This document shows positions 33,761 to 61,114 of a stretch of 64,000 bases of DNA, piece by piece. Position 1 is the first letter of the stretch, and every line of letters starts with the position of its first letter. Both the position numbers and the translations under genes were made by a program. The stretch is taken from NCBI GenBank assembly GCA_948567375.1, contig OX419759.1, positions 287,303 to 351,302 of the forward strand. Reading direction: 5' to 3'. The notes beneath the pieces were generated by a model, which saw nothing but the letters and a program-made list of their open reading frames with translations, searched no databases and was not told the DNA's origin. Source of the stretch: Lunularia cruciata. Taxonomy: Eukaryota; Streptophyta; Marchantiopsida; Lunulariales; Lunulariaceae.

Positions 33761-34099
33761 GAGACCTTACAAGGAGGTGTCTTCCCAAGATGCATCTCAA
33801 TTTGATGATCTACTTTCTTTTTTGGTAGTAAACCTATAGGTAATTCATCTAGAAAGTCATCTTGGAACTCATTGACAATCTTTCAATTTCTCTTTTGTCC
33901 ATTATGTTGTGCACTCTGGACTTCTCTTGTTAACCCATGAAACAACTATTTTTTTAGCAATAGATGTGGTCTTTATGACATACAAAGGCAACTCTTGCCT
34001 TTGTGATCTTCCTTTAATCCCAAAGATCTTTCATTGACTATTTTTCACTACTTTCTTTCTCCAATCCACTATGGGGTTGTAGTGCTCCATCCATGACAT

Positions 34100-36040
34100 A
34101 CCTAAGATTGCATCATAACGAGCTAGTTGTATCACTTGCCACTTGATTGCTTCTTGATACTCTTTTATAGAGAGTATTATCTTTCTAGGTAACAACTCAA
34201 TCCTCTCTATCTAACCATTAGGTAGCTTTTCATTGTCCTTCTCATCCTTCTCTAGTTCTATCTTCAACCTTATTGCAACAAAGTGAGACAAAAAAATCTT
34301 TGTTGCTCCAAGGTCTATTAACACTCTTACCAAATTACCTTCTAGCACTCCATTTACAACAATTAATTGTGTGTTTATCTTCCTCTCTCTTTGCACACTC
34401 TTCTTCTTCCTCCCCATGCTTTTACTCTTCTTCACCAAGCCAATAAGGCAGTGAGGTGCATTTATTAGCAATGTTTGCTTTTTGATGCAATTTCCATATC
34501 CTCCTCTTCAATTTGTCTCTCCATGTGGTTTAGAGGTCACTTAAATAAAGGCTAAGGGCCTCAAAGATGACAAGCATGACAATTAATGGTTATATGCCCA
34601 ATTTGGCTACAATTGTAATATCATGGTTGTTTTGCTCAAGCCCCTTCTCCTTATGGAGCTCTTTCTCTCCTTTCTTTGACCCATCCTCATTCTCCTTAGA
34701 GAGGACTTGCTCCTCTATCTTGGAACTAAATGTTGCCCAATTCCATAAATACTGGTCCACCAAAATGGTGTGTCTTGGTCCAATATTTTTGCATCACTAT
34801 TATTGCTTCACCTTCTCCACATGCCCTTGCTATTCTTTGGATGCAAGTAATGGCTTCAAAAATAATACAAGGATTTTACACCAATACCTCTTGGCAAATC
34901 CGCTCTTTTGATCCTCTCTTGAAATTTTGAGAGCTTTGGCTAGACTCGTATCAATTATCACAACCTGTAGATCCAGAAATACTTCCATATACTCTTGTAT
35001 GCTATTCTTCTACTTCAACCCCCATAGTCTGGTTTGGGCCATTTGCACAAAATCCACAGATTGGAAATTCTTGAGCAACCCTTCTTGCATGGCTGTCCAA
35101 GTGACCTCTCTTCCTTCTATCAACAATGATTATTCCCAAGCATCATACCATGTGAGGGTCTTATTGGTCAAGTACCCACACACAAACACACATGTAGAAT
35201 CCTCAATGATCTCCATTGTGAACAATCAAATAAATTAATTCATTCTTGAAATCTAATTTTCCACTACTTCCATGGAATGCTATCCCTTGTAAGGCTTGAT
35301 GTTGCATGTCTTTTTCATTCGTAGTGACAATGTGGCTTGATTGTTGATTGGAATTGATGTCATTGGCATTCATAACTCTCCAAGTACTTTGAATGTTGGT
35401 GTTGGTTGATGAGACAACTCCCCTTCTTGCATTACTTGATCCTTCTTTATAGCACTTTCTTGATTTTTCAATTCCTCCATGGTCATCTTTATTTCTTGAA
35501 ACTCATTCAACATCCCCTAGATTCCTTGCATCAAGTCCTGCAACTACGGATCCATGATTCCTACACACAACCAATGTTCACTAGCTACTTCTTACTTCAA
35601 TAGAGGGTTAGAATGATCACCAGGGAGGGTGAAAAAACTATGGGGACTACCACTGGAACCTCAAAAGCTATCATTTTTGATAATATTCCTCACTAAAATT
35701 GTGGACTACAAAATCCCTAAACATCCATTTTGGTCTAACTACATAACAGATTTCTACTTGGGTGTTGAAAGGGTGAGGATCCGGTACATTCAGATCCATA
35801 ACCTCATAATAGAATGTAAATTATCAAATCCTCCTCTCTATCATATACCACCACATGTAAAATCAATAGGTTTGGTGAATTCATCACTCTATCCATGAAT
35901 TCTACTCCAAAGTGATAAACTAGCAATACTCTCATTTGCTCATGCTACATATATATAATCTTGATGTGGAATGGATTCAAGAATGGGAAGCTAGGTGTAG
36001 GAAATTGTCCTTGTAGTGCATCCATCTCAGCCGTTCTCTA
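34100..36040 (-). pseudogene. Element J gag and protease
   Basis: Protease at about 34471-34100 has VLIDLGATKIFLS, the retropepsin active-site region as it appears in this family. gag extends upstream to about 36040, aligning with G 58790-60235. Broken. Confidence 0.75.
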
Positions 36041-36151
36041 ACGTCCTTTCCAAGTCTAGCAATTGCAATATGTTCTCTACCTCATATTATTCAATTTCAA
36101 TAGCTTGTGCTCTTCCAAGAGAGATGATCCACTCTCTTGGATTAAGATACC

Positions 36152-36164
36152 CACTTTGATACCA
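36152..36164 (-). promoter_or_regulatory. Element J primer-binding site (tRNA-iMet)
   Basis: TGGTATCAAAGTG on the minus strand, next to the 5' LTR. Close to the initiator-Met complement TGGTATCAGAG used by G. Confidence 0.8.
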
Positions 36165-36165
36165 T

Positions 36166-36902
36166 TGTAATACTCTAAGGAAAAGAGAACTCTTCAAGAG
36201 AGATACAAGAGAGAAAACACAAATTTCACACTCAATCCTCTGATACCCCAAGGAGCACCCTCTCTTTATTATATAGCCAAAGAGGATCTACTCCAAGGAA
36301 GCTCCACCATAGGATTAGGTACATGGATAGGTGACCTATCAGCAAGTACTACCCTAAGTTTACTTGCTTAGATGGGTGATATGTCAATCTTGGTTGCATC
36401 TGGTTGGTCAAACAAGCTTTGACTAGAGGGAGTCTTTTAGAGAATCTTCTTGGAGGAATCTCAAAATCACATGGGTGAAATATTATTGGAAAGCTCTTGG
36501 TGAGAAAAACCAAGCAGGAGGAAAGGCCAACCTCTTCTTTGTTGGGATGAAATTGCACATTTTTAGGTCTAATTCATCCGTTTAGGTCTCCAAAATTACC
36601 TCCAATGTTTTCAGGCCTATTTTGGCTTCTATCCTATTAGCAGAAGTGCTCTTTTGGCAATAATTCTATCTGATCTATGTTCTCCATCATGTGTAACATC
36701 CTCCCAAATGTTAACACCCCAAGTTTCATCTTGAGATCATATGCCTAACTATTGATTCTAAAGTTTCCAAGTTTCTAGTCTATTAGTACTCTTTTGGTAA
36801 TACCTCTATTTTATCTGCATAGTCCATCATGTATAACATCCTTCTACATGTTAGCAAACCAAATTTCATCTCTAGATCATCTATCTACCTATTGATATTA
36901 CA
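36166..36902 (-). repeat. Element J 5' LTR
   Basis: 737 bp with TGTAATACTC at the left edge and GATATTACA at the right. It aligns with the LTRs of G. It contains two diverged copies of a ~140-bp unit built around ATTAGNAGAAG..CTCTTTTGG and TGTAACATCCTNC. Confidence 0.85.
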
Positions 36903-36922
36903 ATTTACCACCCTAGGTCTAT

Positions 36923-36940
36923 CACTACAAGAAATTTTGA
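36923..36940 (+). repeat. Possible CACTA transposon terminus
   Basis: CACTACAAGAAATTTTGA matches the conserved plant CACTA (CMC/EnSpm) terminal start CACTACAAGAAA over 12 bases. No inverted partner or transposase was found to the right, so this is at most one end of a decayed or MITE-like element, or a chance match. Confidence 0.3.
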
Positions 36941-39038
36941 TAGTTGATATTGCATCCTTTCCTTACTATAAGAACCATCCAAACTGTATTATCCATCCAT
37001 GTTCATTTACTCCTTTCTTGATGAGCAAAAGAGATCACTCTACTTTAGTAGGAGATCCCTTGAGAGATCATTAGTTAGGTTTTGAATCGATACCCACTCA
37101 ATTATTGATTTCATGACTGAGGAGTGGATTTTAGGTAAACTTAGAGAGTAGAGCATAGATCCATATGATAGTCTTGTGGTGTCCTTTATGGATCTCCATA
37201 TGTGCCAACCTAAGGGAGGTTGGGATATGGACATATAGTCTGGTATTTTACCATGCATGCCTCTATAGGCGGCTCGAGGAAGCACTAGCACATAGTTGTT
37301 ACCAGCTGCATTAAGATACTTGATAGCTTAGGACTTTATCATATTCAGTGTTTGTGATCACTTGTACATATTTACATTCCTCTTGCATTTCTCATTATTT
37401 TTCATATTTTACATTTATATGCTATACATTGTATATAGAATTGAAATTTGGTATGGTATTAAGATGAATTATATATATATAAGATACACAATATTTTGAA
37501 TTTAAAAATTATACATTATATGGTGTATATATCATTGAGATATGGTATAATATTAAGATAAATTGTATATTATACATAAAAGTTAAGATGAATTGTATAT
37601 TATGTTTAAAACTTAAGATGAAATGTATTATACATGTGACCCAGACTCACATTTTTTAACACCTTAAAAGACCTCTTTGAAATTTTCTAATGTAGAAATA
37701 AAACACACTAAGGGATATATCCAATTGTGCTTCTTTTTAACTTACCTTTAACCACTCTATCTCTCTAATAAAGTTATCATTAAACCCCCTAAATATTACT
37801 ACCCAATAACTTCTGTGCACCTACCACCAGCCACGTCTAGCAGAGATCCGCTCAAATGATTTATAAGATACCCTAAACAACCATTCTTGACCTTTACTAC
37901 TATCCTAACCATTTAATCCATTCAAACTATTTATAACATTTCTCTTTTATTTTTATCATTTGACTCCCAAATTGCTAAAGTAATTCAATTACATATTATA
38001 TTCAACCTTACACATTGTTGCATAATCAGTCTTAAATTTATCACATATATTATATTCTACATGTGCACTTAAACAAAATAGATTGATATGTTGATTTGGC
38101 CTTTAATCTATCACCCCCAATATACCCCTATGGGAACACACTCCAACCCAAATGAACCCCTACTACACCGCACCTGGACCCAAAGAAACCCCAACTACAT
38201 TGCATCTTGACCACAACCCAAACAAATCCCACTAGAATGCATCCACATGCAAACAACCCTTGACCAAAATGCAGACCAACCTCCACTTAAAATAACCCAA
38301 ACTTGACTCATACCCCGGCCTAAGCAAACCCTTGGCCAAAACCCACCAACTCCCCTAGAAGTGCACGTAACCCTTCCAAGTCCAGATAAACCCCTATCTG
38401 ACACCCTACACTCTTTGAAGTCTAGGCAAACCCCTATCTGACACACTAAGCATGACTTTTTCCAAATCTTTTCATTGGACCTCAAAGTTTTGGCTAATGT
38501 TCCATAATCATAACCATACAATGGCCAAACCCAATAAAAAAATAGGACCAAAACCAAAACCACCAAGTGCTCCATTATCCAAGCACCCACTAGAGCAAAA
38601 AAACCTCCTAAAATTTGCAACAAATCCTAATTCAAACCTTCTCAATCCAACCACATAAACCCAACAAAGTCTATTTCTCAACCAATGTATCTGAAAGGAA
38701 CCCAACAAACTCAATTTCACAATCAATGCATCTCAAGAAGGTTTATTTGAAACCGTAAGTTTTTAAGTGGTGTGTTTTGTTCATTTTCCACATCTGGTAT
38801 AAACACCTAATAGACTTTAAAACATATCAATATAAACATATTTAAAACATATCACTAAGTTTAAACACCAAGATGAAAATAGTGGTGTAAACTAAGCATT
38901 CCTATTAAAGTAAAAAACATAAAATGTATAAGTGTCTAGATTGGGACAAAAAACCAAAAGGGTAATCAGTATCACTTGAATTTGACAAGGTAGAGTCATC
39001 TAACATTGGAGATTTGGGGTTTGATGGGGGTAATTAAT
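36941..39038. other. AT-rich spacer, no gene recognised
   Basis: Includes a run of short AT repeats near 37380-37630 and a Pro/Lys-rich low-complexity stretch near 38130-38690, open on both strands without a recognisable domain. Nothing else was identified. Confidence 0.45.
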
Positions 39039-40921: not shown

Positions 40922-42289
40922 TGTCACGCCATTGGTAGTTCCGCGCCTAGATGCTCGGACATTGGAGTTCCAGTGATGGTAGTTAGAGTTATTCTAGCAG
41001 TTTCTCAGGGACTACTTTCCGATGGTTAGATTTTGTGTTTGGGGTACTGACTTCACGGTGGGGCCCACCGTCACTTTGCACCGTTTGCACCGTCGAGTGT
41101 GCCGTCAGCGGGACCGTTAGGGTTTCAGGGCTAGCTCGAGTCCAGGTGGTATAGTTTCGAAGTGAGCTCTAGAGAGCTCACTTCTTTGATGTTGAGCTTT
41201 CGAGTTCCTGGCTATGGTGGACAGAGGCCGGCGAGCGTCACCTGGATTCTCTATGCTTGAGTGGGTGTGGCTTGACTGTAATCAGTGCCCAATTGTTGGC
41301 AGTTTATAGAGTGACAGATCAAGTACTGATCTGAGTTGAGTTGAGTTGAGAATGTTAAGCAATCTGATTACATCAAAGAAGTGAAGTCAGTTGGAAATCG
41401 GGTGCAGGAACGTTGAGTGTTGGTGGTATCTCCAAGCTCGGTGGATCGTGGTAGCTCGATTCAAGTTCTGTGTTTCCCTAGTGTGCAGAAGCTCGTTCAG
41501 TTGATGCAGATTTGGCAGTTATGCGGATGGTGTACGGAAGCACTGGCCAAATTTCAAGCAAAGAAGGAGCAATTTTTGAGCAATGTTGTGATTTTGAGCT
41601 CAGGAGGTGAAGGCAAGACCAATCTGCTACGAGTTGGGCTCAGAAAGTCAAATTGAAGGTGGAGTTGGGAAGCTCTTCTCATGAAATTGTGATTTGGAAA
41701 AACCTGTTTTGTCAATTTGGCTCGAGTGGAAAGTTAGCGGCGGATTTGGCGGACATCCATCTTTAGGGTTTATGTCAGATTTTACGTCATATTTTTGGGC
41801 CAGAATTGGAGGAGTTTCGCTGTTTGGCTAGATTTGGAGAAGTTTCGCTAGTTTGGAGGAGTTTCGCAGATTTGGAGAAGTTTCGCCAATTTTGGAGGAG
41901 GTTCGAAGTGGCAACAAGAAGGGCCTCATTTGGCTAAATTTTGGCGTTTCGAGGCTTTGAGGCATAGGGCTGTGGGCTATGAGAGGCTACGAAGGCCTAG
42001 AAGGGCCAGCATGCTGGCGTGAGGCTAGCTAGTTTAGTGTAGATCTTGGTCATTGGTTGGCAAAATCTGCCTTTCTTGCTAGATTGTGCGCAACAGGGTT
42101 TGACCCCTAGATCTCTTGTTCCTAGACTGGTGCCCTAGCCAACTGGTCCACCCTCACTTGTTATCATAGTGACTGTGCCACTCTTATCTATACACATGTA
42201 GCTTTGGCTAGGAGAGGCAATTTGATCCCATTCTTGGTGATCCTGATAGGCTAGGACTTAGATACGAACTACTCTTATGTCAAATGCCA
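40922..42289 (+). repeat. Element B 5' LTR
   Basis: 1368 bp from TGTCACGCC to TGCCA, ending 2 bases before the primer-binding site. The first ~450 bp match both LTRs of A, and the rest matches only the 5' LTR of A. The 3' boundary is inferred from the primer site because no second complete LTR exists in the window. Confidence 0.78.
42090..42155 (-). repeat. tRNA-like segment inside element B LTR (antisense)
   Basis: On the minus strand the A-box-like TGGACCAGTTGG (42150-42139) is followed by the B-box-like GGGTCAAACCC (42106-42096). It corresponds to 10025-10095 in A and has the same orientation relative to the element. Confidence 0.5.
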
Positions 42290-42291
42290 AA

Positions 42292-42306
42292 TGGTGGCAG
42301 AGTCAG
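42292..42306 (+). promoter_or_regulatory. Element B primer-binding site (tRNA-iMet)
   Basis: TGGTGGCAGAGTCAG, matching the plant initiator-Met complement TGGTATCAGAGCCAG at 12 of 15 positions. gag begins about 400 bp downstream. Confidence 0.75.
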
Positions 42307-42644
42307 TCTCGTGTTGTGTTATGAGATGGAGAGTTTTCGTTTAGATTTCTTGTGATTGGATCCCCTCCATTCTCTGCTTCCTGTTTGTGCACCATGTTTG
42401 TGTGAGGTGCCTTGAATTTTGAGCGTTGGTGCTTTGGTGTGCTCTCGGTGGTGAGGCTGGAGTGATGACCAGTCAGACTACCTTTGTTTCTCTCCGGTGA
42501 GGTAAGAAGTGATGACTTGCAGACCGTGAGAGTGCGTGTTATGATGGCAGGTTATAGGTTGCCCTTCCCCTAGTGTAGTTATCTTGGTAGAGTTACATTA
42601 GTGGGTGGTGTTTAGTTGGTGTTGGCACGTGGTGGTGTTGGCAC

Positions 42645-44168
42645 TTGGTGGGGTACTTGCGGTTGCAGTTGGTGGTTCGGGTTTGTTGTTGCAGTTACGT
42701 GGTCACGATGGAGTTCTTTGGAGATTCCAGAGGAGTTAGCCCTGTAGTACGCAGTGGGTTTACTCGGAGTGGTGCTTGGTATCAACCGGTATCTCAGGTC
42801 CCAATGAGGGAGGAGATTGACTCTGAGCTGGAGTTTGACACAAGAGCTGATTCAGTTGAGAGTGTACTTGGTGTGTCCGCACCATTGTTGTGGGACATGG
42901 ACAAGATTTATGGGGCCTCCAAAGGCCCTAGGCGTTACTCTGGTACAATGGGTACCATTGAGTTGGATGACTTCATCCAGGAGTTTGATAGTTGGTGTGA
43001 TCTGCAGCAGATGCGGAACCCGACTTTGTTCACACCCTTCATGGCATGGAAGGGGTTGTTTCAGCACTTGGAGGGTCCGCCGATGGACAACTACCATGAG
43101 TTCAAGAGAGCTCATTTGGAGGAGATTGAGTTATGGAGACAATATTGGTCTCCACACTATGTCTCCATCACTTCAGGCTCGGTGGCCAGGAGTAGATCGG
43201 TTGTACCCACGAGTTCTAGCTCAAGTAGTGTTGGTGGAGCTAGTGGAGGTGCACTAGCTGGAGATAGTGCTACTACGAGTGGAGGTACCACTGCAGGAGG
43301 TGGTGTGGTACCGGGGTTTAACCCCATGGTGGAGTTCTTCCTATGTTTGAGGCAGAACTACCAAGGAGTGCGGACTGACAAGCTAAGGAGCTTGCAGGAG
43401 TTCCAGGGGAAGGCTAGAGAGAGCCTACGCGAGGCATATACTTGCATGAGGCGGCTGATCAGTTTCACTTAGGGAGTTACTAAGGCCCAGGCAGTCTAGT
43501 TTTGGTATGGGATACTGGACAAGGAGTTGCGACGTAGAGTTTGTGATGCTACATTGTTGCAGGCTACTTCGCCCACTTTGGCAGTAGTCTTTGGTTTGGC
43601 TGAGCGTATTGAGCTCAACATGGTGGAGGAGAGAGTGGTGACAGCTGGATTTGGTAGAGAGACCTCATCCACAGTTGTGACTTCTTCTAGAGTGCAGTAG
43701 AGTGCACCATGCCCAGTTGGTTTTCGAGGACAGGGTGGACAGCCCAGATCCTATGGAGCGAGTGGAGGGCCTAGTGGAGTTAGACACTTACCCTCATTTT
43801 CGGGTCAGCAGCAGCCAGTGAGTGGTGGTGTTGCTTGTTGGACTTGTGGTGGACCTCACCATAGGAGAGAGTGTACTCAAGGCAGCGGACCTGATACCTC
43901 TGGTGCATCACAGCCAGCACAGAGGCAATGTGAGCACTGCCACAGATTTGGTCACACTAGTGACCGGTGTTTTGACCTACACCCGGAGTTACGGAGTGGT
44001 AGGGCTGCTATGGCAGGTAGTAGAGGAGCTCCAGTTCATGGAGGACGAGGTGGTGGTAGAGGATCTACACCTAGTAGGGGTGCAGTACCTGCCCTTACTT
44101 CTGACACAGCTATGGCTACTCGGATTGAGGAGTTGGAGCAGAGATTGGCTAGTATGGCTATTGCTTAG
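42645..44168 (+). pseudogene. Element B gag
   Basis: Starts at 42645 or more likely at 42708 (MEFFGDSRG), which is shared with A. A capsid-like domain at about 42940-43470 includes LDDFIQEFDSWCD and WKGLFQHLEG. Two zinc knuckles follow near 43835-43965: CWTCGGPHHRREC and a canonical CEHCHRFGHTSDRC. A Gly/Arg-rich linker and a short coiled coil (RIEELEQRLASM) end the region. Expected to form particles and bind element RNA. Broken in a few places. Confidence 0.88.
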
Positions 44169-44507
44169 AGGAGATCAGATTCGGGTGCTGAGGCTTCCAC
44201 CTCATATGCTGGTGATAGAGATGCTTTGGACTTCATGTGCGGAGCAGCACAGGTGGATGCATCTGCAGCAGTGACTAGGAGTGCAGTAAGTGCTCCAGAG
44301 CCTAGAGGAGCATCAGTGGAGTTGGACCCATAGAGAGGAGAGGTTGGGAGACAGGTCAAACTTCCCCAATCTTTCACGCTATCTGAGGCATTACAGACAA
44401 CATCCATGGTTCCTAGACGTCCTAGTGCAGGTATGGTAGGTGGTGATGGAGTACCTGATGGAGTACCTGCTAGTCAGCCACATGCGACTACATAGACTAA
44501 GTATAGC

Positions 44508-45190
44508 ATGATGTTGGGGGCGGCTCAGCTGATTATGCGGCATCCTTTATTTTCAGCCAGTGACATGTTTACATTGGGAATTGACCCAGCCCCAGTGTTC
44601 CGGTTGGCTGCCACGTTGTGTGAGAGTAGGGATGGTGCAGTTCCTACTACTAGAGAAGAGGTGGTTGGTAGTGGAGCTGACTTGGTTGAGGAGCATGGGA
44701 TCCATTCAGCGACCAGTGGTTTATGGCAGGCAGCAGCGGCTAGACTGGAGGAGTTGCCAGCTAGACCGGCCTTTGAGAGAGCACGGTTTACACCTGGTGT
44801 TGTCCTATTGGATAACCAGAGGGGGATCTTTCGTTTAGTGGGACCTTCAGGGAAGGTCTATACACCACAGAGAGTCTTGTTAGACTCTGGTGCACAGCCC
44901 CTTATGTTGGGGAAGGCTGCAGTTGTTGGTCTAGAGTTACGGAAGACCGATGTGGAGAGGTGTCCATTTCAGATCCAGACATCTCTAGGTGGTGGTTTGA
45001 CACAGTACATCACACGTGGGGAGCTTGTTGTCTAGGTTCAGCCTGGTCATCCGATTGATAGCTCGGTGGTGAGAGCTCAGGCTATTGCGACGATAGCTGA
45101 GTCATATGATGTGCTAGTTGGGGGAGCAGTGTTATACCCTATGGGTTTCAACATTGACTATTGGGAGGAGACAACCTCTTATAGACCTGG
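44508..45190 (+). pseudogene. Element B aspartic protease
   Basis: Retropepsin active site LLDSGAQP near 44878, followed by a hydrophobic beta-rich domain and YDVLVGGAVLYPMGF near 45107. The intact DSGA triad region contrasts with the more decayed version in A. It would cleave the gag-pol polyprotein. The methyltransferase begins about 130 codons further on in the same frame. Confidence 0.88.
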
Positions 45191-45559
45191 TTGGCAGCCT
45201 GGTGAGGGACGGGTATGTTGCCTACCAGTATGCTTCAGTAGTGGCAGTCTTGGCTCACTACAGTCCGGGACCATGGCAGCATCAGTTTTAGCTTTCAGCG
45301 GTGCAGTTACTTGGCCTAGTGACTTGTTGGAGGGGAACGCCCATGCAAAGGATACTCCAGTACCAAAGGAGATCACTCGGCTATGGAGTACGAGTGGGAT
45401 TGTTCCATCCACCTTGGATGTTCCATTGTGGAGTTCAGAGGAGGCATTGCAGCAACATGCAGATCAGGACGTGCAGCAGGCTTGGAGTGGAGCCTTCGTA
45501 CCATTAGGGGATGAGTGTGAGGATGAGCCTCCAGAGGCGATTGCTTTGACACCTCTGGA

Positions 45560-46580
45560 TACCACACTCATTGCTTGGCAGTATCCAATAGAGGGGATAT
45601 GTCTATTGGAGTTGTTTGGTGGGATCAGCACCGAACTAGCTGCGGTGTTACAGGCGGGTATCCGAGTACAGAGGTACTTGTATGTAGAGAGAGATGAGAC
45701 TGCTAGGCGAGTCTCTCTACATCATGTGGCACACTTGGCCTATCGGTATCCGGAGTTATTACCGATGTCAACAGTCAGAGGTTACCAGAAGGCCTTACCA
45801 GGAGACATTTCCTTACTGGGGGCGCATGACCTAGAGAGACATGGGCCTATTCACTTGGTGATTTCTGGATGGCCATGTCAGGGACATACACGTGCGGGCC
45901 GTGGTTTGGGTCTTCAGGATCCTCGTTCTGGTGTGTTTTGGGAGATGTTACGGATACTACAACATCTCCAGGTTCATCAGTCTGTTTCTCCATCTTACCT
46001 TTTGGAGAACGTTCCATTGATGGGTGATTCTCGCACTAGAGTGGTGGCAAGTACACATCAAGTCCATTCATGGATGGGACCTGCTGTATTGTTAGATGCA
46101 GCCAGAGTGGGATCACGGGCTCATCATCTTCGTCTTTGGTGGACGAACCTCTTACCCAGAGAGGTTCTACAACGTAGTTATGATGGGATTCAGCGACTAG
46201 ACCACATTCTTGTTGATGATATCTTGGATGCTGGACGTCAGTCTCAGACAGTGGTAGTGGCTGATAGGTCACCTATGGCAGTGGTGAACCTAGTTGGACA
46301 GCCTAGAGCTGCATTTCCCACACTCATGAGTTTCCCAGGCTCTCATGCTTTTTGAGAGGGAGGACTTGGACTTGTTTGGGACTCACAGTTACAGCAGTTG
46401 GTGGAGCCCAATGCTGATGAGAGAGAGCACGCGATGGGTTTTCGCACCGATATTACCGCTGTTCCAGCAGTGTCAAAGGCATCCAGGCATCAGGTGTTAG
46501 GTCAGGCTATGGACATGAACTGTTTGACCTGGATTGTGAGCCTTGGTTTGGCAGAGCAGCGTAGGATGCGCTTGATAGGC
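45560..46580 (+). pseudogene. Element B cytosine-5 DNA methyltransferase domain (DNMT3-like)
   Basis: Motif I LELFGGISTEL near 45603 is the S-adenosylmethionine loop. Motif IV WPCQGH near 45870 holds the catalytic Cys and is followed by RAGRGLGLQDPRS. Motif VI is LENVP near 46005. A motif VIII-like block, DAARVGSRAHHLRLWWTNL, lies near 46095. The IX/X region, DEREHAMGF and then RHQVLGQAMDMN, lies near 46413-46535. The order is canonical, unlike plant DRM enzymes, and the style is nearest DNMT3. The family transfers methyl groups to C5 of cytosine in nuclear DNA. It lies between protease and reverse transcriptase, an unusual place for an extra domain. The key motifs survive although the domain is interrupted. 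Its role may be to methylate element copies or target DNA, which is inference. Confidence 0.92.
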
Positions 46581-46599
46581 ATCACCACTCGAACACTTG

Positions 46600-46950
46600 T
46601 GAGCCCTGTGCCTATCGAGACGATTCAGGCACATGTTGGGGGCAATGGACCGAGTGGACATGGTATTCTTGGGACACATCCAGTAGCTACTAGGGAGAGT
46701 GGTCTACTTGGAGTCCATCCAGGTGAGCGTGGGCTACTTGGATTACACCCTTGGTCCACATGGGATGCAGCCAGAGGACGTATGGAGCTTGCAACCAGAG
46801 TGGAGGGAGTTTTTCACACAGAGGTTGGGGCCTCTAGTGGTCGGGAGCATGACACCATTGCTCCCAAGGGCCTAGTGTAGCAGCCAGTCAATACGTCTTC
46901 CACTCCTACTACAGTTACAAAGGATACTTGGGAGCCAGATCTTGGACCCA
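46600..46950 (+). other. Element B linker between DNMT and reverse transcriptase
   Basis: Short open sequence rich in Gly/Ser/Thr with repeated GVHPGERGLLG- and GLHP-like phrases, matching A near 5620-5760. No domain recognised. Probably a flexible connector in the polyprotein. Confidence 0.5.
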
Positions 46951-48360
46951 AGCTTACTGGAGAGGAAAGACGGAGGGTTTGGAGGTTCTTGAGGAGTCAC
47001 ACGAGTTGTTTTGCCTTCAATATGAAGGATTTGGGTGCTCTGAAGGGACCTGGTATACGGATTGAGCTGACTAGCGACACACCTATTTTCCGACGTCCTT
47101 ATCGATATAGTGAGATGGAGAGGACATTGATTCAGAGCTGGAGTATTGACCTTTTTGAGGCTGGTTTGGAGGAGATTTCACATGGAGAGTATGCATCAGC
47201 GACAGTGATGCCCGCCAAGAAGGATATGCATGGCAACTATACAGATAGGCGGATGTGTGGAGATTACCGTCCTATCAACCAACAGACCAGGCCTGATCGG
47301 TATGCCATGCCTACACCGGAGGAGATTTTTGATGCAATTGGGCATGCAAAGGTCTTCAGTACTTTGGATCTTTGAGCGGGATATCATCAATTGCCAATCA
47401 GGGAGGAGGATAAGTCCAAGACAGCATTTTGGGCTATTGATCCTCACGGCAAGGATGTGTTATATCAGTGGAGGTTCTTACCATTTGGGTTGAAGAACGC
47501 TCCTGCTGAGTTCCAGAGGGTCATGGATAGGATCCTAGCTGGATTGGATTTTGCTCGGTGTTATATTGATGACATTTTGGTCTATAGCACTATTGTGGAG
47601 GAGCATGAGAGACAGTTGTTGGAGGTGTTTGAGAGGTTGAGATCTCATGGACTCAAATTACATCCTGGGAAGTGTAGGGTCTTCCACGAGCAGGTTGAGT
47701 ATTTGGGTCACACTATCTACCCCGGAGGACTTGGTGTCCAACAGACCAAGGTGGAGGCTATTGCACGTATTCCTTGGCCTACGGATGTGAGCAGAGTGCG
47801 AGCATTCCTTGGGTTGGCAAACTTTTATCACCGCTATGTTAGAGGATTTAGTGCCATTGCCAAGGCCTTGACGAAGCTGACCAAGCTTACACAAGAGTGG
47901 TGTTGGGGAGATGAGCAGGAGAGAGCTTTTGTAGAGCTCAAGGAGAGGTTGACATTTGCTCCTATTTTGAGGAGACCGATCAAGGGACGACCATTTCAGG
48001 TTCACACTGATTGGAGTATGTTGGGGCTTGGAGCAGTGCTCACCCAGCATGATGATGAGGAGAAGGAGTTTGTGGTGGCCTATGCTAGTCGCTCCAACAA
48101 TTCAGCGGAGGCGAAGTATAGTTCATATGAGGGAGAGTGCTTGGCAGCAGTTTGGGCAATAGCACATTTCTGATGTTACCTATTTGGTAACCCCTTCACT
48201 CTCATCACTGATCATCAGCCGCTGAAGTGGTTGATGGAGTCTGACAAGCTTTCAAGGAAGCTTGCATGATGGGCTCTGATTTTACAAGAGTATGATTTCA
48301 CGGTTGTTCACAGACTTGGAGTGGTGAACCGTGATGCAGATGGGTTGAGTAGAAACCCAT
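46950..48360 (+). pseudogene. Element B reverse transcriptase and RNase H
   Basis: Reverse transcriptase carries MPAKKDMHGNY, RRMCGDYRPINQ, FLPFGLKNAPAEF and the catalytic YIDDILVYS near 47560. The connection domain (FLGLANFYHRYVRGFS) and RNase H (HTDWSMLGLGAVLTQ, YEGECLAAVWA, ITDHQPLKWLM) follow. These are clear Ty3/gypsy signatures, different in detail from the chromoviruses F, G and J. Broken in a few places. Confidence 0.92.
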
Positions 48361-48539
48361 GTCCCAACCAGCAGGATCAGACCGGAGCACGTTGGCATGG
48401 TGAGACAGATGAGGAGATGGTGCCAGGTTGGCATGCATCGGCCTTTCTGTGTATATTTGCAGAGACTTTGGTGGTATCTCTCTCAACGCATACATGAGGA
48501 GTTATTGAGGTCACAGATCCAGAGAGTGAAGATATTGGT

Positions 48540-48815
48540 ACAGTTCAGCGAGACATTCATGATGATGTCTTAGTGATGGACTATCTTTGCACTGGTGTTG
48601 TGGGTGGCACAGTTGGGGCCAAGGAGAGAGACCGTGTTCTTCAGCGAGCCAAACGGTTCAGATTGGAGGGTAGACACCTTTTGCGTGTATGGGAGGATGG
48701 TAGAGTGCGAGTAGTACCACTTCCATCACAAAGACCACAGTTGGTCCGTCATGCTCATGAGGAGCTAGGACATTTTGGAGTAACATGTACTCGTGTCATT
48801 GTTAGCCGTAACTAT
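48540..48815 (+). pseudogene. Element B integrase N-terminal fragment
   Basis: Linker and zinc-binding start of integrase (VVPLPS, then HAHEELGHFGV), matching A 3850-3630. Homology ends near 48815 and AT-rich unrelated sequence follows. Confidence 0.8.
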
Positions 48816-49775
48816 TAACTAATCTTACTTGTGATATCTATTAATTTCACACTAAGCCATTTGTAAAATGTGCAAAAGTGGACCTTGAAATATCCTAAAA
48901 ATCAACACTCCATGCATAAATTTTTTTACATACATTTCATGTTAAGGGACCACAAGCTTATATAGGTACCAGAAAAAACCTATATAGGGAATGCCATAAA
49001 TTTTTGATAACTTTTGAATTAAAATGCCCTAGTGGATTTGAGATAACACTTGAACTATCCTTGCCTTGTCAAGCATTGACTAGGGCTTCTAACCTTGAAT
49101 GGTTTGCACAAGCATTGCATAGGTTTCTACTCTTTGTGGTATTGTGAGTTTATTTTGATGGTATAATAGGGTACAACTAGTATATACCATAATGTGATAT
49201 ATGAAAATTATGAAATTATCACTTATTGAACAATACTTAAAAAATAGGATAAATAGAAATAATGTACAAAAAGAACATGATTATTATTGCATACAATTAA
49301 AAGAAAACCATTAGAATGGTGGTTTCACTCTCTAATTTTGGTTGCCTTCATAGCTCATTATAGATAGTCCCATAAAGAATAATAGTCCTAACTTATTATA
49401 CTTTAAAAATAAAAAATTATACCTCAAAGTAATCAATATTATGACCAAAGCTTCATTAATTTCTATATTCATAAAAGAATGATTCATATACACAAAAACC
49501 TTATGAATTTCTTAGGTCACAATATATAGGTATTAATGCTAGCTCTAGATTATGAATACAATATAATACAATCTCTCTTTATGCAATTAAGACCATCCAA
49601 GTGATTTATAACAATTTTCACTAATTTTGAATAACTTAGCAAAGAAAATTATACCAATAATATATAGATAAGATTAATACCATTATATTCCATATTCTCA
49701 ATTTACTCCTTTGAAAAATAAGGCTTCTAATCAAGCTCCCACATGACTCCTCCAACCTCTCCCCAATCTTACACA
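48816..49775. other. AT-rich spacer between elements B and I
   Basis: No coding region, LTR or RNA gene recognised. It begins where the homology of B stops and ends where the integrase homology of I starts. Confidence 0.5.
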
Positions 49776-50867
49776 ATGTTAGGAACAAGTAAGCATAGAT
49801 CTGGTTTGTGAATTGCCCAAGACCACCTTTGGGTTTGATTCCATTGTAGTCTTTGTTGACCAACTTAGCAAAATGATTCATGTATGTCCTACCACCAAGG
49901 ATGTGACTGCCCCACAACTAGCTCAGTTGTACTTAGATGTGGTTTTTTCCCATGATGGCTTGTCTTGAGTGCTAGTCATAGATAGAGACACTCACTTCAC
50001 TAGTTTGTTTGGAGAACACTCTTTGGGTTCTTCAAAACCAAATTAGTTATGTCCACAACTTACCATCCACATACCAATGGACAAACAAAGAGGGAAAATT
50101 GCACTATTGAGGACATGCTTTGGGGCTTTACTTTGGATGAGCAAGCAAGTTGGGACACCTTACTCCCATTGGTGGAATTTGCTTACAACAATTCATTGAA
50201 TGCCTCTTCACAAGTCACACCATTTTTCCTCATGTATGGAGAGCATCCTTTCATACCTTCAAGCTTGATGAAGGTCCATCCGGTGGCTACCAAGGTTGAC
50301 ATTGTCAACACTTTTGTTTTTAGAATCCAACAAGGGGTAGAGCATGCCGAGCACAGGTTGCAAATCACCCAAAATTGGCAAAAGCAGTATGAAAATGCAC
50401 ACCGCCAGCAAATGGAGTTCAATGTGGGAGATCAATTCTAGTTGTCAACCACCAACTTCAAGTTCATTGGTCTTCATAAGCTTAGACCTTGTTTTATTGG
50501 ACCTTTCTCCATCCTTTGTCACATCGGCACCGTGGCCTTTCACCTTGAGCTATCGCCACATATGAAGATTCACCCAATATTTTATGTTTCTTTATTATGA
50601 AAATGTACTCCTTGGCCACCCCACTTCTCTTCCATCCAAGAAAGTCAACCTTGTCCAACCCTAGTTGATGATATAGAGGAGTATTAAGTCAAATGCATTC
50701 TCCATAAGCGCATCTAAGGTACTTGCCATCCATGTGTGGAATACTTGGTACATTAGAAAGGGTACTCCTTGTATGAGGCAACATGGGAGCCAACAGCCAA
50801 CTTGAGCTATGCACTAGTGTTAGTGAAATCTTTGAGCAACCGGTTACCAACAAGGATGTTACGTATT

Positions 50868-54534: not shown

Positions 54535-55265
54535 TGTAATACTCCAAGGACGAGAAGAGAGAAAACACAGATTGCACTCTCCAACATTCGATGCCCCAAA
54601 GGAGCACCTTCTCTTTATTATATAGACAAAGAGGATCTCCTCCAAGGAAGCTCCACCATAGGATTAGGGACATAAATAGGTGACATGTCAGCAAGCTCCA
54701 CCCTTGGATTACTTACTTGGATGGGTGGCATGTCTGGTCTAGGTCCTATCTGGTTGGTCAAACAACCGGAGGGAATCTTTTAGGGAATCTTCATGTAGGA
54801 ATCTCATAATCACGTGAGTAAGGTACCATTGGAAAACTCTCAACAAGACAAAGCAAGGGGGAGGGAAGGCCAACCTTTCCTTTGTTGGGGGGGGGGGGTT
54901 TGCACATTTTCAAGGCCTAATTCATCCGTTTAGGCCTTCAAAATTGCCTTCAAAGATTTTAGGCATATTTTGGTTCCTACTCTATTAGTAGAAGTCTCCT
55001 TTTGGTGATACCTCTTTCTGATCTGTTTAGTCCATCATGTGTAACATCCTTCCAGATGTTACCAAACCAATTCTCACCTTTAAATCATATGTCTAGCTAT
55101 TGGTTCTAAGGTCTCAAGTTTATTTTGGTTTCTGCCCTATTAGTAGAAGTACTCTTTTGGTGATGCTTCTATCTTATCTATTTTGACCATCATGTATAAC
55201 ATCCTTCTAGATGTTACCAAACTAAATTTCACATCTAGATCATATAGCTAGCTCTTGGTATTACA
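54535..55265 (-). repeat. Element G 3' LTR
   Basis: Left edge TGTAATACTCC, right edge TTGGTATTACA. It contains two ~145-bp related units (about 54985-55110 and 55130-55260) around CTATTAGTAGAAGT..CTTTTGGTGAT, and a ten-G run near 54886. Confidence 0.93.
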
Positions 55266-55309: not shown

Positions 55310-56510
55310 TGCTTAAATGCTTGCACCAACATCGGTGCATGTGCCAAATTGGCAGTGGGCTCCCAGGTTGCTTCATAGAGGGTGTAACCTTTCCATTGTA
55401 CTAGATAGTCCACCCGTAGATGGTGAGTACCACGCATGCGTTTTTGGAGAATCCGCTCTTCTTCATATTCCTCTATGCCATCAATGAGTGTCGGACAAGG
55501 TCAAATGTCTTGTGTGGAATGACCCTAGCCTGATCGGGGAGCATATTTGTGTAGTAGGGAAACATGGAATACTGGATGGATCTTCATGTGTGGTGGTCGC
55601 TCAAGGTGATAGGCCACAGCACCGATGCGACAAAGAATCAAGAAAGGCCCAATTAAACAAGGTCTGAGTTTACAAGGTCCAACTAATGTGAGGTTGGTTG
55701 TCGATAGACACACTTGATCCCCAACATTGAACTCCATGTGCCTATAGTGTGCATAACCATACTGCTTTTGTCGATTTTGTGCAATTTGTAATCTGTGCTT
55801 GGCGCACTCCACACCTTGTTGGATTCTAGAAACAAATGTGTTGACTGCATTGACCTTGGTAGCCACAGGACGGATCTTCATCAAGCTAGAAGGTGTGAAG
55901 GGATGCTCACCATACATGAGGAAGAACAAAGTGACTTGGGTGGATGCATTCACTGAATTGTTGTAAGCAAATTCCACCAACGGGAGTAGGGTGTCCCACC
56001 TCTCTTGCTCTTCTAAGGTGAAGCCACGTAACATGTCTTCAATGGTGCGATTAGCCTGCTTTGTTTGGCCATTTGTTTGTAAGTGGTAAGTTGTGGACAT
56101 GGCCAACTTGGTTTTGAAGAAACCAAAGAGTGTTTGCCAAAACAAATTGGTGAATTGGGTGCCTCTATTGGTGATGAGTACTCTAGACAAGCCATGGTGA
56201 GCAAAGACTGCATCTAAGTATAATTGAGCTAGTTGTGGAGCGGTCACCTCCTTGGTGGTAGGGCGTACATGAATCATTTTGCTGAGCCGGTCCACAAAGA
56301 CCACAATGGAGTCAAACCTTGAGGTGGTCTTAGGTAATTCACAAATGAGATCCATACTCACTTGTTCCCATCGTTGGGTCGGAGTGGGGAGAGGTTGAAG
56401 GAGCCTTGCATGAGCTTGATTAGAAACTTTGTTTTTTTGACAAAGTAGGCAGCTACGCACATAGTCCATCATGTTGTTGCTCATCTTGGGCTAATAGTAA
56501 TGGCGCTTGA
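55310..56510 (-). pseudogene. Element G integrase with chromodomain
   Basis: The open frame at 56484-55525 covers the zinc-binding end (CLLCQKNK), the core (VSMDLICELP, RVLITNRGTQF, YHLQTNGQTKQANRTIED) and the C-terminal domain (EFNVGDQV, GPFLIL, HPVFHVSLL). A chromodomain with YLVQWKGY and ATWEP follows at about 55500-55320. It is well preserved over the core, with chromovirus architecture. Confidence 0.92.
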
Positions 56511-56819
56511 CTGCATCCAAGGTCTTGTCCACTTCGACATGAGCTGCAATGGCCGAATCATGACATTTTGCTAGAATGGTGGTGCATAATTTTAGGACAT
56601 TTGGGATCCATAATCTGCCATCCCAAAAGGTGAGTCCTTAGGTGCTGGTGAAACCTTTGGATGATTGTGCCTCTACAATCTGTGGATCAGTTTTTGTAAT
56701 AGCCAGAATTTAGGGTTACTCTTAACCTCTACCACCAAGTTGTTTGCCATTGGCATGCGGGTGAATGCATCTACAAGTTGTTTCTTACCTTCCACGTAGG
56801 TGATTGTCATGTTGAAGCA

Positions 56820-57990
56820 TTGTCACCACTCTGCCCACTGAATTTGGTGACAAGATAGATCCTTTTGTGTCTCGAGGTAGACTAGAGGTTTGTGGTTTGT
56901 CTCTACTACAAATGCCTTCCCGCCCAAATAGTGCTTCCAATGCTTGGTTGCTAGAACAATAGCCAACTCTTCTTGTTCTATGGTGTGGTAGTTGCGCTTT
57001 GCTGGTAACAACTTTTGAGAGAAATATGCAATTAGATGCCATCCATCATGCCACTCTTGTTGTAGGACTGCTCCTATTGCCATGCTTGATGCATCTATAG
57101 CCAACTTGATTGGACATTTTGGGTCATACCACTTCAAAATTGGTGCATGTAGCAAGGCGGCCTTCAATTCTTGAAAGGCCAACTCTTGTGCAGTTCCCCA
57201 TGTCCAGTTCTTCCCCTTGCCAAGTAGTGCCGTTAAAGGCTGTGCAACCTTGGAGAAGTCCTTGACAAATCTACGATAGAATCCCGTCAACCCCAAGAAG
57301 CTCTTAAGTTGAGTATGATCTTCTAGGGCACTCCATTTTTGAATGACCTCTATTTTATCTGTCAATACTTAAATGCCCTCTACACGTACTCTATGCCTCA
57401 AGTAGTCTACTTCAAACTTGCCAAACTCACACTTTGAGATTTTGGCGTACAATTGATTCTGTCTTAGAATCTGGTGGACCTCTCATAGATGTTGTTTGTG
57501 TTCTATCATCATGCTACTATATACTAAGATTTCATTTCAAGAAGACGATAATAGACTTATCTAAGTATGGATGAAATATGTCATTCATTAGACTCATGAA
57601 AGTGGCAGGGGCATTGGTGAGGCCAAAAGGCATCACAAGATACTCAAAGTGGCCATACTTGGTTTGAAAGGCAGTTTTGTACACATCCTCCTCTGCAATT
57701 TGGATTTGATTGTAACCGCTCCGCAAGTCCAGTTTGTTGAAGTATCTTGCTCCATGGAGTTGATCAAACAGGTCATCCATGCAAGGTAAGGGGTATTTGT
57801 TCTTCATTGTTTGCTAATTGAGACCCCAATAGCCAATGAAACATGCGCATTGTACCATCCTTCTTCTTCACAAACAAGACAAGGGCCCCATATAGTGATA
57901 TGCTAGGTTGGATGAACCATTTTTGCAACATCTCCTCAATTTGAGCCTTACACTCTTCCAACTCATGAGGTGATAGGCGATATGGAGCCT
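56820..57990 (-). pseudogene. Element G reverse transcriptase and RNase H
   Basis: Reverse transcriptase at about 57990-57300 has [25 protein letters not shown] and [12 protein letters not shown]. The connection and RNase H (57365-56823) have FLGLTGFYRRFVKDFS, AIDASSMAIGAVLQQE and ETNHKPLVYLE. Close to J. Broken. Confidence 0.9.
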
Positions 57991-58029
57991 TACAAGGAGG
58001 TGTCTTCCCCGGGAGTGTCTCAATTTTGT

Positions 58030-60235
58030 GATCTACTCGCCTTTTTGGTGGTAATCCTGAGGGTAGATCATTGGGAAAGACACTTGAAACTCATCCACCA
58101 CATCCTTCAATTTCTCAGGAATTTGTCCATTGAGTTGTGCACTCTGGACTTCTCTTATTAGACCCATAAAACATCTATCAATATGACATATAGAGGCAAT
58201 TTCTATGACATATAGAGGCAATTTCTGCCTGTGTGATTTTACTTTAACCCCAATGATTGACCATTGGTGGGTTCTCACTACTTTCTTCCTCCAATCCACC
58301 ATAGGGTTGTACTGCTCCATCCATGGCATGCCTAAAATTGCATCATAACGAGCTAACTGTATCACTTGCCACTCAATTGCTTCCTAATATTCTCCTATAG
58401 AGAGGGTTACCCGTCTAAGTAATGATTCAATCCTCTCTGTTTGCCCATTTGGTAACTCTACTTCTTCACTCCCAACTCTCTCTAGATCCATTCCCAATCT
58501 TATTACAACAGAGCAAGACAAGAAATTCTTTGTTGCTCCCAAATCTATTAATACTCTCACTTGATTACCTTCTAGGATTCCATTCACAACAATCCATTGT
58601 GAGATTGCCTTTTCTGGATCTTTGCACATTATTCTTCTTCCTTCCCTTGCTCCTCTACTTCCTTATTGAGCTAGTAAGGCTACAAGGTACATTTACTGGT
58701 GATCTTTATTTTCCAAAGTGATTTCCACCTCCTCCGCTTCAATGTGCCTCTCCATGTTGTTCAAAGATTGCTTGTACGAAGGCCGAGGGTCTCTAGGGAA
58801 ACAAGTGTGATAGCTGGTAGATATGTGCCCAATACGGCCACAATTGTAACAACAGTGTTATTCTCCTCAAGTCCCTTCTCCTTGTGGGACTCCATCTCTT
58901 TGTTCTTCTACTTGTCCCGCTCCCCTTGAAGCGGTCATGCTCCTTGATCCCGGAATCGAAGGTTGCCCAATTCCATCGGTACTGGTCCACCCATGTGGGG
59001 CATTTCTGCTCAATAATGTTGAGGTGGAACTACTCCTTCACCTCCACCTAATGCTCCTGCTATTCTTTGCACACAAGCAATGGCTTCAAATACCGTGCAA
59101 GGATTTTGCACCATGACTTCTTGGCAAATCCACTCTTTTAACCCTCGTTTGAAATTATCAAGAGCCTCTATTGGACTCATGTCGGTAATTACAACTTGTA
59201 GATCCAGAAATACCTCCACATACTCTTGTATGCTATTCTTTTGTCTCAATTCCCATAGTCGGGTTCGAGCCATCTGCACAGAATCCACCAATTGGAAATT
59301 CTTCACCAGTCCTTCTTGCATTGTTGTCCATGTGACTTCCCTTTTCTCTACCAACATGGATTATTCCCAAACATCATACCATGTGAGGGCTTTAACGGTC
59401 AAGTACCCACATGCAAACACACCTGTAGCATGCTCTATGATTTCTGTTGAGAACAATCAGAAATATCAATTCATTCTTGAGATCTAATTTTCCACTACTC
59501 CCATCGTACGTTGCCCCTTGTAAGGCTCGATGTTGCAGATCTTCTTCATCTGGAGTAGCAATGTGGCTTCATCATTGATAGGGTTCATAGGCACGGGTGC
59601 CTCTCTAGTTGCAGGTATTGGGTTTTGAGACGGCTCTTCTTCTTGCATGGCTTGATCGTTCCTGAGGATCTGTAGTTGACTTTGTAATGTCTCCAAATCA
59701 TCTTAATCTCTCAAAATTCATTTAACATCCCTTGCATTCCTTGCACCAGCTCTTGCAATTGCGGATCCATGGTTCCTGCAACACTCAATTGCTAATGTCT
59801 ACTTCAATATAGAGTCAATATAATCACTCTGGAAGGTACACAAACTATTGGAACTACCATTGGGACCGCGGAAGCTATCACTCGTTGATAATACTCCTCA
59901 CCAAAATTCCTAACCACAAAATCTCTAAACATCACTTTCGGTCTCACTACATAACGGATTTCTACTTGAGTATTGAAAGGAAGAGGATTTGGGACATTCA
60001 TATCCATATTATCATAATAGAATGTAGATTGTCAAATCCCACTCTCTGTCATATATCACCACAGGTAGAATCATCGGGTTTGGTGAGTTCATCACTCTGT
60101 CCATGAATTCTACACCAAAGTGATAAACTAGCGATACCTTCATCTGCTCACGCTGGATGTACATAACCTTGATGTGAAATGGGTTTGAGAATAGAAAGCT
60201 AGGTGTGGGAAATTGTCCTCTCAGCGCATCCATCC
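58030..60235 (-). pseudogene. Element G gag and protease
   Basis: The gag N-terminus starts near 60233 or 60007. The capsid-like domain at 59357-59010 includes FLDLQVVITDMSPIEALDNFKRGL. A zinc-knuckle region (CYNCGRIGHI) lies near 58860-58825. Protease at about 58629-58030 includes VRVLIDLGATKNFLS and DAILGMPWMEQYNP. Broken. Confidence 0.85.
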
Positions 60236-60361
60236 TATCCGCTCTCTAAAGTCCGTCCTAAGTCTAGCAATTACTCTATGTTCTCCACCTCAAATTACTC
60301 AATTTTAGTAGTTTGTATTATTCCAAGAGGGGTGATCCACTCTCTTCGACTAAAACACTCA

Positions 60362-60372
60362 CTCTGATACCA
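60362..60372 (-). promoter_or_regulatory. Element G primer-binding site (tRNA-iMet)
   Basis: TGGTATCAGAG on the minus strand, an exact match to the initiator-Met complement, one base from the 5' LTR. Confidence 0.92.
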
Positions 60373-60373
60373 T

Positions 60374-61114
60374 TGTAATACTCCAAGGACAAGAGAAGAG
60401 AGAAAACACAGATTGCACTCTCCAACATTCGATGCCCCAAAGGAGCACCTTCTCTTTATTATATAGACAAAGAGGATCTCCTCCAAGGAAGCTCCACCAT
60501 AGATTAGGCACACAAATAGGTGACAAGTCAGCAAGCTCCACCCTTGGATTGCTTACTTGGATGGGTGACATGTCTGGTCTAGGTCCTATCTGGTTGGTCA
60601 AACAAGCTTTGACTGGAGGGAATCTTTTAGAGAATCTTCCTGATAGGAATCTCATAATCACGTGAGTAAAGTAACATTGGAAAGCTTCGACAAGACAAAG
60701 TAGGGGGAGGGAAGGCCAGCCTTTCCTTTTGGGAAGGGGGAGGGGACATTTGCACATTTTCAAGGCCTAATTCATCCGTTTGGGCCTTTGAAATTGCCTT
60801 CAAAGATTAGGCATATTTTGGTTCCTACTCTATTAGTAGAAGTCCCCTTTTGGTGATACCTCTTTTTGATCTGTTTAGTCCATCATATGGAACATCCTTC
60901 CAGATGTTACCAAACCAATTCTCACCTTTAAATTATATGTCTAGCTATTGGTTCTAAGGTTCTCAAGTCTATTTTGGTTTCTGCCCTATTAGTAGAAGTA
61001 CTCTTTTGGTGATACTTCTATCTTATCTATTTTGACCATCATGTATAACATCCTTCTAGATGTTACCAAACCAAATTTCACATCTAGATCATATGGCTAG
61101 CTCTTGGTATTACA
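60374..61114 (-). repeat. Element G 5' LTR
   Basis: 741 bp paired with 54535-55265, about 4-5% different by eye, with the same internal ~145-bp units. Right flank CACAA is the target duplication. Confidence 0.93.

Follow-up and report, generated by a model that had tools for sequence, protein, structure and literature searches.

The question raised by this locus of Lunularia cruciata is whether a cytosine methyltransferase is truly part of a gypsy retrotransposon and, if so, how such an element might use it. An initial annotation of the window, i.e., of the whole 64-kb (64,000-nucleotide) stretch that was analyzed, had proposed a DNMT3-like methyltransferase within a plant gypsy LTR element, and both the enzyme and its DNMT3-like character were borne out. 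The DNMT3-type C5 cytosine methyltransferase domain (CMT) was located at 45594–46580 (+). A profile search against methylase families gave a significant match of PF00145 (DNA_methylase; Pfam) to the frame 45036–46355 (+), with an E-value of 1.9e-7 and 31.3 bits against a cut-off of 22, spanning residues 256–335 of the frame (window 45801–46040). Blocks that we take to be motifs I (LFGGI), II (VERD), IV (PCQ with the catalytic Cys, 45873–45881, +), VI (ENV, 46005–46013, +), VIII (GSRAH..LRLWW) and IX/X (NADERE..LGQAMDMN) followed one another in this order in the copy at this locus (copy A), where the motifs shared a reading frame with gag, protease and reverse transcriptase (RT). A homology search with the CMT at E ≤ 1e-3 recovered 65 proteins. 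The top match was 64% identical to the query and covered 97% of it, and the first-ranked named relative for the protease-CMT part was from Calypogeia fissa (64% identity).

Comparison of the homolog P0002 with solved structures placed DNMT3A/B/C as the best 26 of 51 sequences. Human DNMT3A ranked first (E 3.6e-11), then DNMT3B, then 4onj (1.2e-6), an entry titled 'DNA methyltransferase' that is presumably a DRM; further matches were bacterial HaeIII (E 4.5e-5) and, by name, DRM2 (E 0.0039). No DNMT1- or CMT-class name (the latter being the host methylase class, distinct from the CMT domain of the element) occurred among these matches up to E 10. A DRM class for the element methylase was ruled out by its unpermuted motif order, the DRM-like genes of the same genome having permuted motifs. 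By similarity, the host genome held two DNMT3-like loci (L001 and L004) and two permuted DRM-like loci (L002 and L015), and two host DNMT3 exon pieces were just 28 and 26% identical to P0002. Phylogenetic analysis grouped the retrotransposon CMTs in one clade, separate from host DNMT3, human DNMT3A and DRM, with a UFBoot support of 100 in a tree of 16 taxa (160 columns) and 89 in a tree of 41 taxa (330 columns), both built without DNMT1, CMT-class and DNMT2 sequences. An insert of ∼18 residues between motifs II and IV was common to the retrotransposon CMTs of the 16-taxon tree. Because of this separate clade and insert, the element CMT is not a recent copy of a host gene. A DNMT3-type CMT almost certainly belongs to a gypsy element as one of its own domains.

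The window contained three copies of the element. Copy A (40922–48818, +), which holds the CMT noted first, starts with TGTCACGCC like other copies and is truncated at its 3′ end. Its A1, the 5′ copy of a split direct repeat, was delimited at 40922–41375 (+) from the sequence, by comparison with 13 copies having two A repeats and a 5′ flank. ORF1 (gag-protease-CMT; 42708–46880, +) begins at a putative ATG (42708), ends with a UAG at 46878 and is interrupted in this copy. It includes two CCHC-type zinc knuckles of gag (43836–43970, +; motifs CWTCGGPHHRREC and CEHCHRFGHTSDRC) and a retropepsin-like region (44790–45170, +; LLDSGAQPLMLGKA), both recognized from sequence with no Pfam match; in the homolog P0002, Asp_protease_2 matched under its cut-off. 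A premature TAG at 45033–45035 (+) lies between protease and CMT, where copy B has CAG at the equivalent place, and a premature TGA at 46353–46355 (+) falls inside the CMT before motifs IX/X, with TGA there in 19/47 rows of the family alignment. ORF1 ends in UAG CAG CCA (46878–46886, +), and the start of ORF2, with RT and RNase H (RH), follows at 46881–48173 (+), likewise interrupted (RVT_1, 2.6e-25, and RT_RNaseH_2, 1.4e-27, in 47376–48173). The integrase (INT) begins at 48723–48815 (+; Integrase_H2C2, 1.2e-4, under its cut-off), and the copy breaks off inside it, other sequence being found from about 48819. Since stops occur at 45033, at 46353 and additionally in frame in RT, and the 3′ part is gone after about 48818, copy A is dead. 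The single frame with gag, protease and RT that had been claimed thus holds in that the frame is shared; it is interrupted at 45033, 46353, 46878 and in RT.

Copy B (1580–11404, −), recognized by its inverted match to copy A, is full length and heavily decayed, with A1 from 11404 and the end of B2 at 1580, and is flanked by a 4-bp target duplication (AAGG, at 11405–11408 and 1576–1579). Its CMT region has approximate limits of 5805–6855 (−), based on inverted repeats I5, I8 and I17 and on sequence, and contains many stops; the UAG between CMT and RT, followed by CAC CCA, was read at 5525–5527 (−), and a PHD finger ends the INT at 2418–2552 (−; PF00628, E 2.1e-11). Both CMT-bearing copies of the window are therefore decayed. 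Copy C (62344–64000, −; inverted repeats I1 and I11) consists of the gag part only and reaches the window end. In the 5′ leader of copy A, the minus strand at 42040–42170 resembles a tRNA A box and B box by eye; this stretch had no ARAGORN or Rfam match, and neither program found a tRNA or Rfam RNA elsewhere within the element.

Other elements were also observed in the window. Two copies of another gypsy-type family, parts of which were about 77–83% alike, lie at 32400–37000 and 56600–61200, the second region containing an RNase H at 56826–57368 (−). A gypsy INT with a Tf2-1-like SH3 domain (PF24626, E 2.2e-17) was found at 55528–56490 (−), and a related piece at 49714–50611 (+), 3′ of the truncation point of copy A. 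A retroviral-type aspartyl protease frame of another element occupies 28558–29205 (−; RVP_2, E 2.2e-4), and tandem duplications of 155–156 bp, about two copies each, from another element family were seen at 54966–55259 and 60814–61108.

The genome searched comprised 566 Mb in 74 contigs, of which eight of 60–85 Mb hold about 558 Mb. A 27-mer of CMT motif IV had 3,979 genome sites at ≤3 mismatches, against 0 for the reversed control, and PHD sites numbered 4,979; if every CMT site were a 9.9-kb copy, the family would make up about 39 Mb, or roughly 7% of the genome. Twenty copies of 10 kb each were fetched from 123 scored of 2,161 candidates, 15 for their long frames and 5 others. L031 and L032 had an uninterrupted ORF1 of 1428 codons from stop to stop, ending in TAGCAGCCA, and L035 and L036 had an uninterrupted ORF2 of 1037 codons in the frame of ORF1. 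PF00145 was the sole Pfam match in the ORF1 of open copies, the knuckles and a DSGA protease motif being read from the sequence, while the single 1037-codon frame of ORF2 contained RVT_1, RNase H, Integrase_H2C2, rve and PHD in this order (Pfam). With P0080 as a query, 12 of 74 scored places (13,842 candidates) had stop-free frames of at least 1402 aa, the longest frame being at most 1448 aa, and no second, closer subfamily was seen among these 74. A search of IMG/VR with P0002 gave no relative.

Ty3/gypsy LTR retrotransposons have TG...CA ends and a target duplication of 4–6 bp, whereas DIRS/PAT elements have split direct repeats (A1-body-B1-A2-B2), a tyrosine recombinase and no target duplication. 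Ends were scored in the 13 of 22 copies (the 20 fetched, A and B) in which the two A repeats were present and 5′ flanking sequence was available; L049 was excluded for its missing flank, and the other copies were without a full A pair. All 13 followed the plan A1 (about 450 bp), body, B1 (about 110 bp), A2 and B2, with the terminal bases TGTC at the start and GACA at the end, and GC, in some copies AC or GT, between B1 and A2. The 5′ end is A alone and the 3′ end B1-A2-B2, so that these copies lack identical LTRs at their two ends. The 4-bp flanks were identical in 11/13 copies (exceptions L043 and L035). RT and RH stand upstream of a DDE integrase (rve) in one polyprotein, as in Ty3/gypsy elements, and no Pfam match to a tyrosine recombinase was obtained in the two frames read. 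The family combines split repeats like those of DIRS/PAT elements with 4-bp duplications, the trace that a DDE integrase leaves. The description as a plant gypsy LTR element stood as regards its gypsy domains and needed amending for the split direct repeats, the two ORFs across a fixed UAG and the PHD finger on INT.

The codon at the CMT/RT junction was TAG in 27/27 rows, namely copies A and B of the window and 25 loci from the first 30, of which the remaining five are host methylase genes; it was followed by CAG in 26 rows and by CAR YYA in 24. In the larger alignment, it was TAG in 43/43 rows covering that position, up to three places being counted twice (overlaps L011/L041, L021/L043 and L020/L050). 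The next commonest ORF1 stop was present in 19/47 rows, no other ORF1 codon exceeding 0.40. A 27-base junction pattern with the stop codon left free had 2,734 genome matches at ≤3 mismatches and 0 with the reversed control; among the 100 matches listed, the codon was TAG in 93, TAA in 6 and TTG in 1. On visual inspection of the HPW..WD block, proteins of eight relatives terminate at the corresponding place (P0001 from Calypogeia, P0066 and P0070 from Marchantia, and P0067, P0039, P0047, P0017 and P0052). CMT and RT are in a single frame with no intervening stop in P0161, P0164 and P0215, so the junction stop is a feature of the Lunularia family and some of its kin and is not universal; the remaining listed relatives ended earlier or were cut by contigs or gene models.

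UAG CAR YYA is described as a Type I readthrough signal (PMC2754532; PMC11166343), and the Lunularia element resembles the TMV-type case in having UAG, then CAG CCA and an in-frame extension. According to PMC2754532, the plant readthrough cases verified by 2009 were viral, and rice gypsy elements were named as candidates. Within 133 nt 3′ of the UAG no special RNA fold, and hence no structured readthrough signal, was detected (z 0.32), a result that speaks against readthrough. From the codon context, we infer that ORF2 would be made at a lower level by readthrough of UAG CAG CCA. A rather unlikely alternative is that the UAG does no more than end ORF1, with ORF2 arising from translational restart, from splicing or from an mRNA of its own. 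Restart may indeed bridge the stop elsewhere, because the ORF2-like proteins P0152, P0153 and P0154 begin with Met-Pro at the junction where the Lunularia family has Gln-Pro. The protein models P0069 (Marchantia) and P0078 (Sphagnum fallax) fuse CMT and RT, probably via predicted introns. Against this, the frames of ORF1 and ORF2 are in register across the UAG CAG CCA context, and in the one Lunularia copy read the first AUG of ORF2 is codon 48.

The initial annotation took such retrotransposons as reported only from a few algal and protist lineages, a range that is widened by CMT relatives in liverworts, Sphagnum, Closterium and chlorophytes. The CMT profile matched proteins from Marchantia, Riccia (P0056), Calypogeia, Sphagnum troendelagicum, S. 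tenellum, S. fallax and Closterium, in the last of which gag- and protease-like motifs precede the CMT. The match in S. balticum covered 24 edge residues only, and S. jensenii had matches in gag-protease and no CMT match. A search with INT-PHD, a query favoring PHD-bearing proteins, gave 379 matches; the 120 listed included Haematococcus lacustris, two Volvox species and Riccia sorocarpa (88% identity over 54% of the query). The CMT profile matched 42 of the 119 new proteins from this listing, most relatives being proteins from metagenome contigs. Among the matches listed, the order RT-RH-CMT-INT-PHD was found in 13 proteins and RH-CMT-INT-PHD in 5, while CMT-RT-RH-INT-PHD was found in 2, with the same order lacking a PHD match in P0215; of the new proteins, 20 had only CMT-INT-PHD, 32 RT-RH-INT-PHD and 36 INT-PHD. 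Five proteins were from Haematococcus: in P0244 the CMT is placed between RH and INT, P0255 contains RH and INT without a CMT, and the CMT profile matched none of the remaining three. One of the two Volvox proteins (P0198) contains a partial CMT preceding INT. Six bryophyte models have the CMT ahead of RT, RH or INT (P0046, P0056, P0069, P0072, P0078 and P0079), and Marchantia P0030 joins CMT, INT and PHD. A G-patch domain (PF01585) was observed in some related CMT or PHD polyproteins (P0239, P0191, P0205 and P0227), in P0239 between CMT and INT.

The CMT tree of 41 taxa split the 'before RT' relatives (support 84) from those 'after RH' (92), with several weak inner nodes, and the same two groups were recovered in a midpoint-rooted INT-PHD tree of 117 taxa. 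The CMT may have been relocated once, or inserted twice from a common source. P0218 and P0235, which lack the CMT, nest in the 'after RH' group and, together with Haematococcus P0255, indicate that the CMT is dispensable or can be lost in some lineages. The PHD finger matched 101 solved sequences at E ≤ 0.01; among the 60 listed, the nearest included CHD4, KMT2D/C, PHF12, KDM5B, DPF3, PHF21A and ATXR5. Several of the nearest fingers are presumably readers of H3 unmethylated at K4. Chromoviruses are gypsy elements with an INT chromodomain; the Lunularia element is like them in having a histone-reading module at the C-terminus of INT, and differs in that the module is a PHD finger.

Whether the CMT is catalytic bears on its role. 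In the Lunularia family, the residue preceding LVI.G.PC at motif IV is His in 47/47 rows, whereas relatives have Asp, and the catalytic activity is for this reason uncertain. It is conceivable, if improbable, that the fold is kept for a non-catalytic task (nucleic acid binding, particle structure or recruitment of a host methylase), catalysis being lost or reduced. This would fit the His substitution, as well as the PCV of P0161 and the GWEC that often replaces GWPC at motif IV in Closterium and in the 'after RH' group, whose CMT precedes INT; GWEC is present in P0212, P0244, P0124 and others. It is opposed by the residues that were kept, namely the catalytic Cys in 46/47 rows and the motif VI Glu and Asn, motif I Phe and motif X Asn in 47/47, and by GWPCQ and ENV in bryophyte-type relatives wherever the motif was found.

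Selection on the element was assessed by pairwise dN/dS, pooled over non-independent pairs in three divergence bins and compared with a neutral simulation that used the element's own A1/A2 mutation spectrum and an assumed rate of other transitions. The values were 0.42, 0.42 and 0.48 for CMT (neutral 0.82–0.83), in a sample of copies chosen by PF00145 match and long frames, which favors a conserved CMT. They were 0.37, 0.39 and 0.44 for RT (neutral 0.65–0.70), 0.37, 0.31 and 0.47 for gag (0.71), 0.57, 0.54 and 0.76 for the INT core (0.74–0.77), 0.65, 0.74 and 0.73 for the linker 3′ of CMT (1.11–1.23), and 0.42, 0.59 and 1.37, the last from 19 pairs, for PHD (1.11–1.14). CMT, RT and gag are clearly constrained, as their dN/dS lies below the neutral simulation; for INT and PHD, constraint is weak or absent in the oldest bin.

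C/T differences between A1 and A2 per C sites amounted to 73/508 at CG, 61/703 at CHG and 35/1,707 at CHH, two old copies (B and L035) supplying 94 of the 179 A1/A2 transitions. This pattern looks like the outcome of CG and CHG methylation of inserted copies, a common state of plant transposons. Four other repeat pairs in the window showed the same rank order of contexts, so that the pattern is explicable by host methylation without the element's enzyme, and an element-specific methylation visible in decay was not supported. Divergence between A1 and A2 was 0.2–3.8% in 11/13 copies, which indicates recent activity. These data also bear on another improbable explanation, in which the CMT acts in trans, silencing competing elements or damping its own family and so gaining host tolerance. 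With 3,979 CMT sites in 566 Mb and such low A-repeat divergence, the Lunularia family could have spread in a tolerated state, and a slowing of retrotransposition is among the ideas put forward for retrotransposon DNMTs (PMC5890265); on the other hand, the other repeats in the window differ in the same C contexts.

That the resemblance arose by chance, that the assembly was falsely joined or that a host gene was captured just once are readings to which we attach next to no probability and in favor of which nothing was found. They are refuted by the copies and relatives: a second copy (B) lies in the window, CMT sites number in the thousands with none for the reversed control, the protease-CMT-RT order recurs in several species, and the host DNMT3 pieces are so dissimilar.

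A DNMT3-type domain in a gypsy element has been described in Klebsormidium nitens (KnitGypsy-Dnmt3; de Mendoza et al., 2018, PMC5890265). According to that study, KnitGypsy-Dnmt3 has gypsy domains and a repeat structure as in a DIRS element, and its DNMT is under purifying selection; the enzyme had no activity in yeast, a result the authors regard as inconclusive. Judged against this published description, the Lunularia family is similar in its unpermuted DNMT3-type domain within a gypsy element, DIRS-like repeats and purifying selection on the DNMT, and differs in its occurrence in a bryophyte with 3,979 CMT sites, the fixed UAG in a leaky context 3′ of the CMT and the demonstrated 4-bp duplications. 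It has, moreover, a PHD finger on INT, and the term 'PHD' is absent from the main text of PMC5890265. No protein named as from K. nitens was among the matches listed in three homolog searches. The dinoflagellate elements SymbioDIRS-Dnmt3 and SymbioLINE-Dnmt (PMC5890265) are likewise retrotransposons encoding a DNMT; they use DIRS and LINE machinery, in contrast to the gypsy INT of the Lunularia element, and are treated in that paper as independent of the gypsy case. CG activity was shown for the dinoflagellate enzymes, and methylation of cDNA was proposed for retrotransposon DNMTs (PMC5890265). DNMT3s embedded in retrotransposons, with LTR Copia and DIRS elements named, are also mentioned for streptophytes and dinoflagellates, with reference to 2018, in PMC12344493. 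Among open-access full texts, most subscription papers being outside this scope, no report was found of CMT-carrying elements in bryophytes or chlorophytes, and none of the PHD finger or the UAG.

We propose that the ORF1 polyprotein (gag-protease-CMT) would terminate at the UAG, and that ORF2 (RT-RH-INT-PHD) would follow by readthrough at a lower level. Encoded ahead of the stop, the CMT would be made in gag-like amounts and could enter the particle. There it may methylate the element's own cDNA around integration, such that a new copy arrives already marked, while the PHD finger would bias insertion to H3K4-unmethylated chromatin, where the mark is tolerated. To this chain as a whole, from gag-dosed self-methylation of cDNA through ORF2 readthrough to PHD-guided insertion, we give slightly less than an even chance. 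A wider reading, tentative and more doubtful, is that an ancient gypsy lineage of chlorophytes and streptophytes, with split repeats and a DDE integrase, paired a DNMT3-type writer with an H3K4me0-type PHD reader and marked itself, methylating its cDNA and inserting where chromatin accepts this mark. The methylase would have moved once, separating the algal-type order RH-CMT-INT from the bryophyte-type order protease-CMT-RT, and the stop would have brought gag-level dosage in the Lunularia family and some relatives.

The work of 2018 on a charophyte and on dinoflagellates presented a paradox: retrotransposons there carry an enzyme that normally serves to silence them. The present analysis places the arrangement in a land plant genome, with thousands of sites, and in Marchantia proteins, and connects it with a PHD reader and with a codon by which the dosage of the enzyme could be set. 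An old lineage, and not a single capture event, is suggested by these results. As the arrangement is present in Marchantia, where genetics is available, the question of why a transposon keeps a methylase becomes testable in a tractable host.
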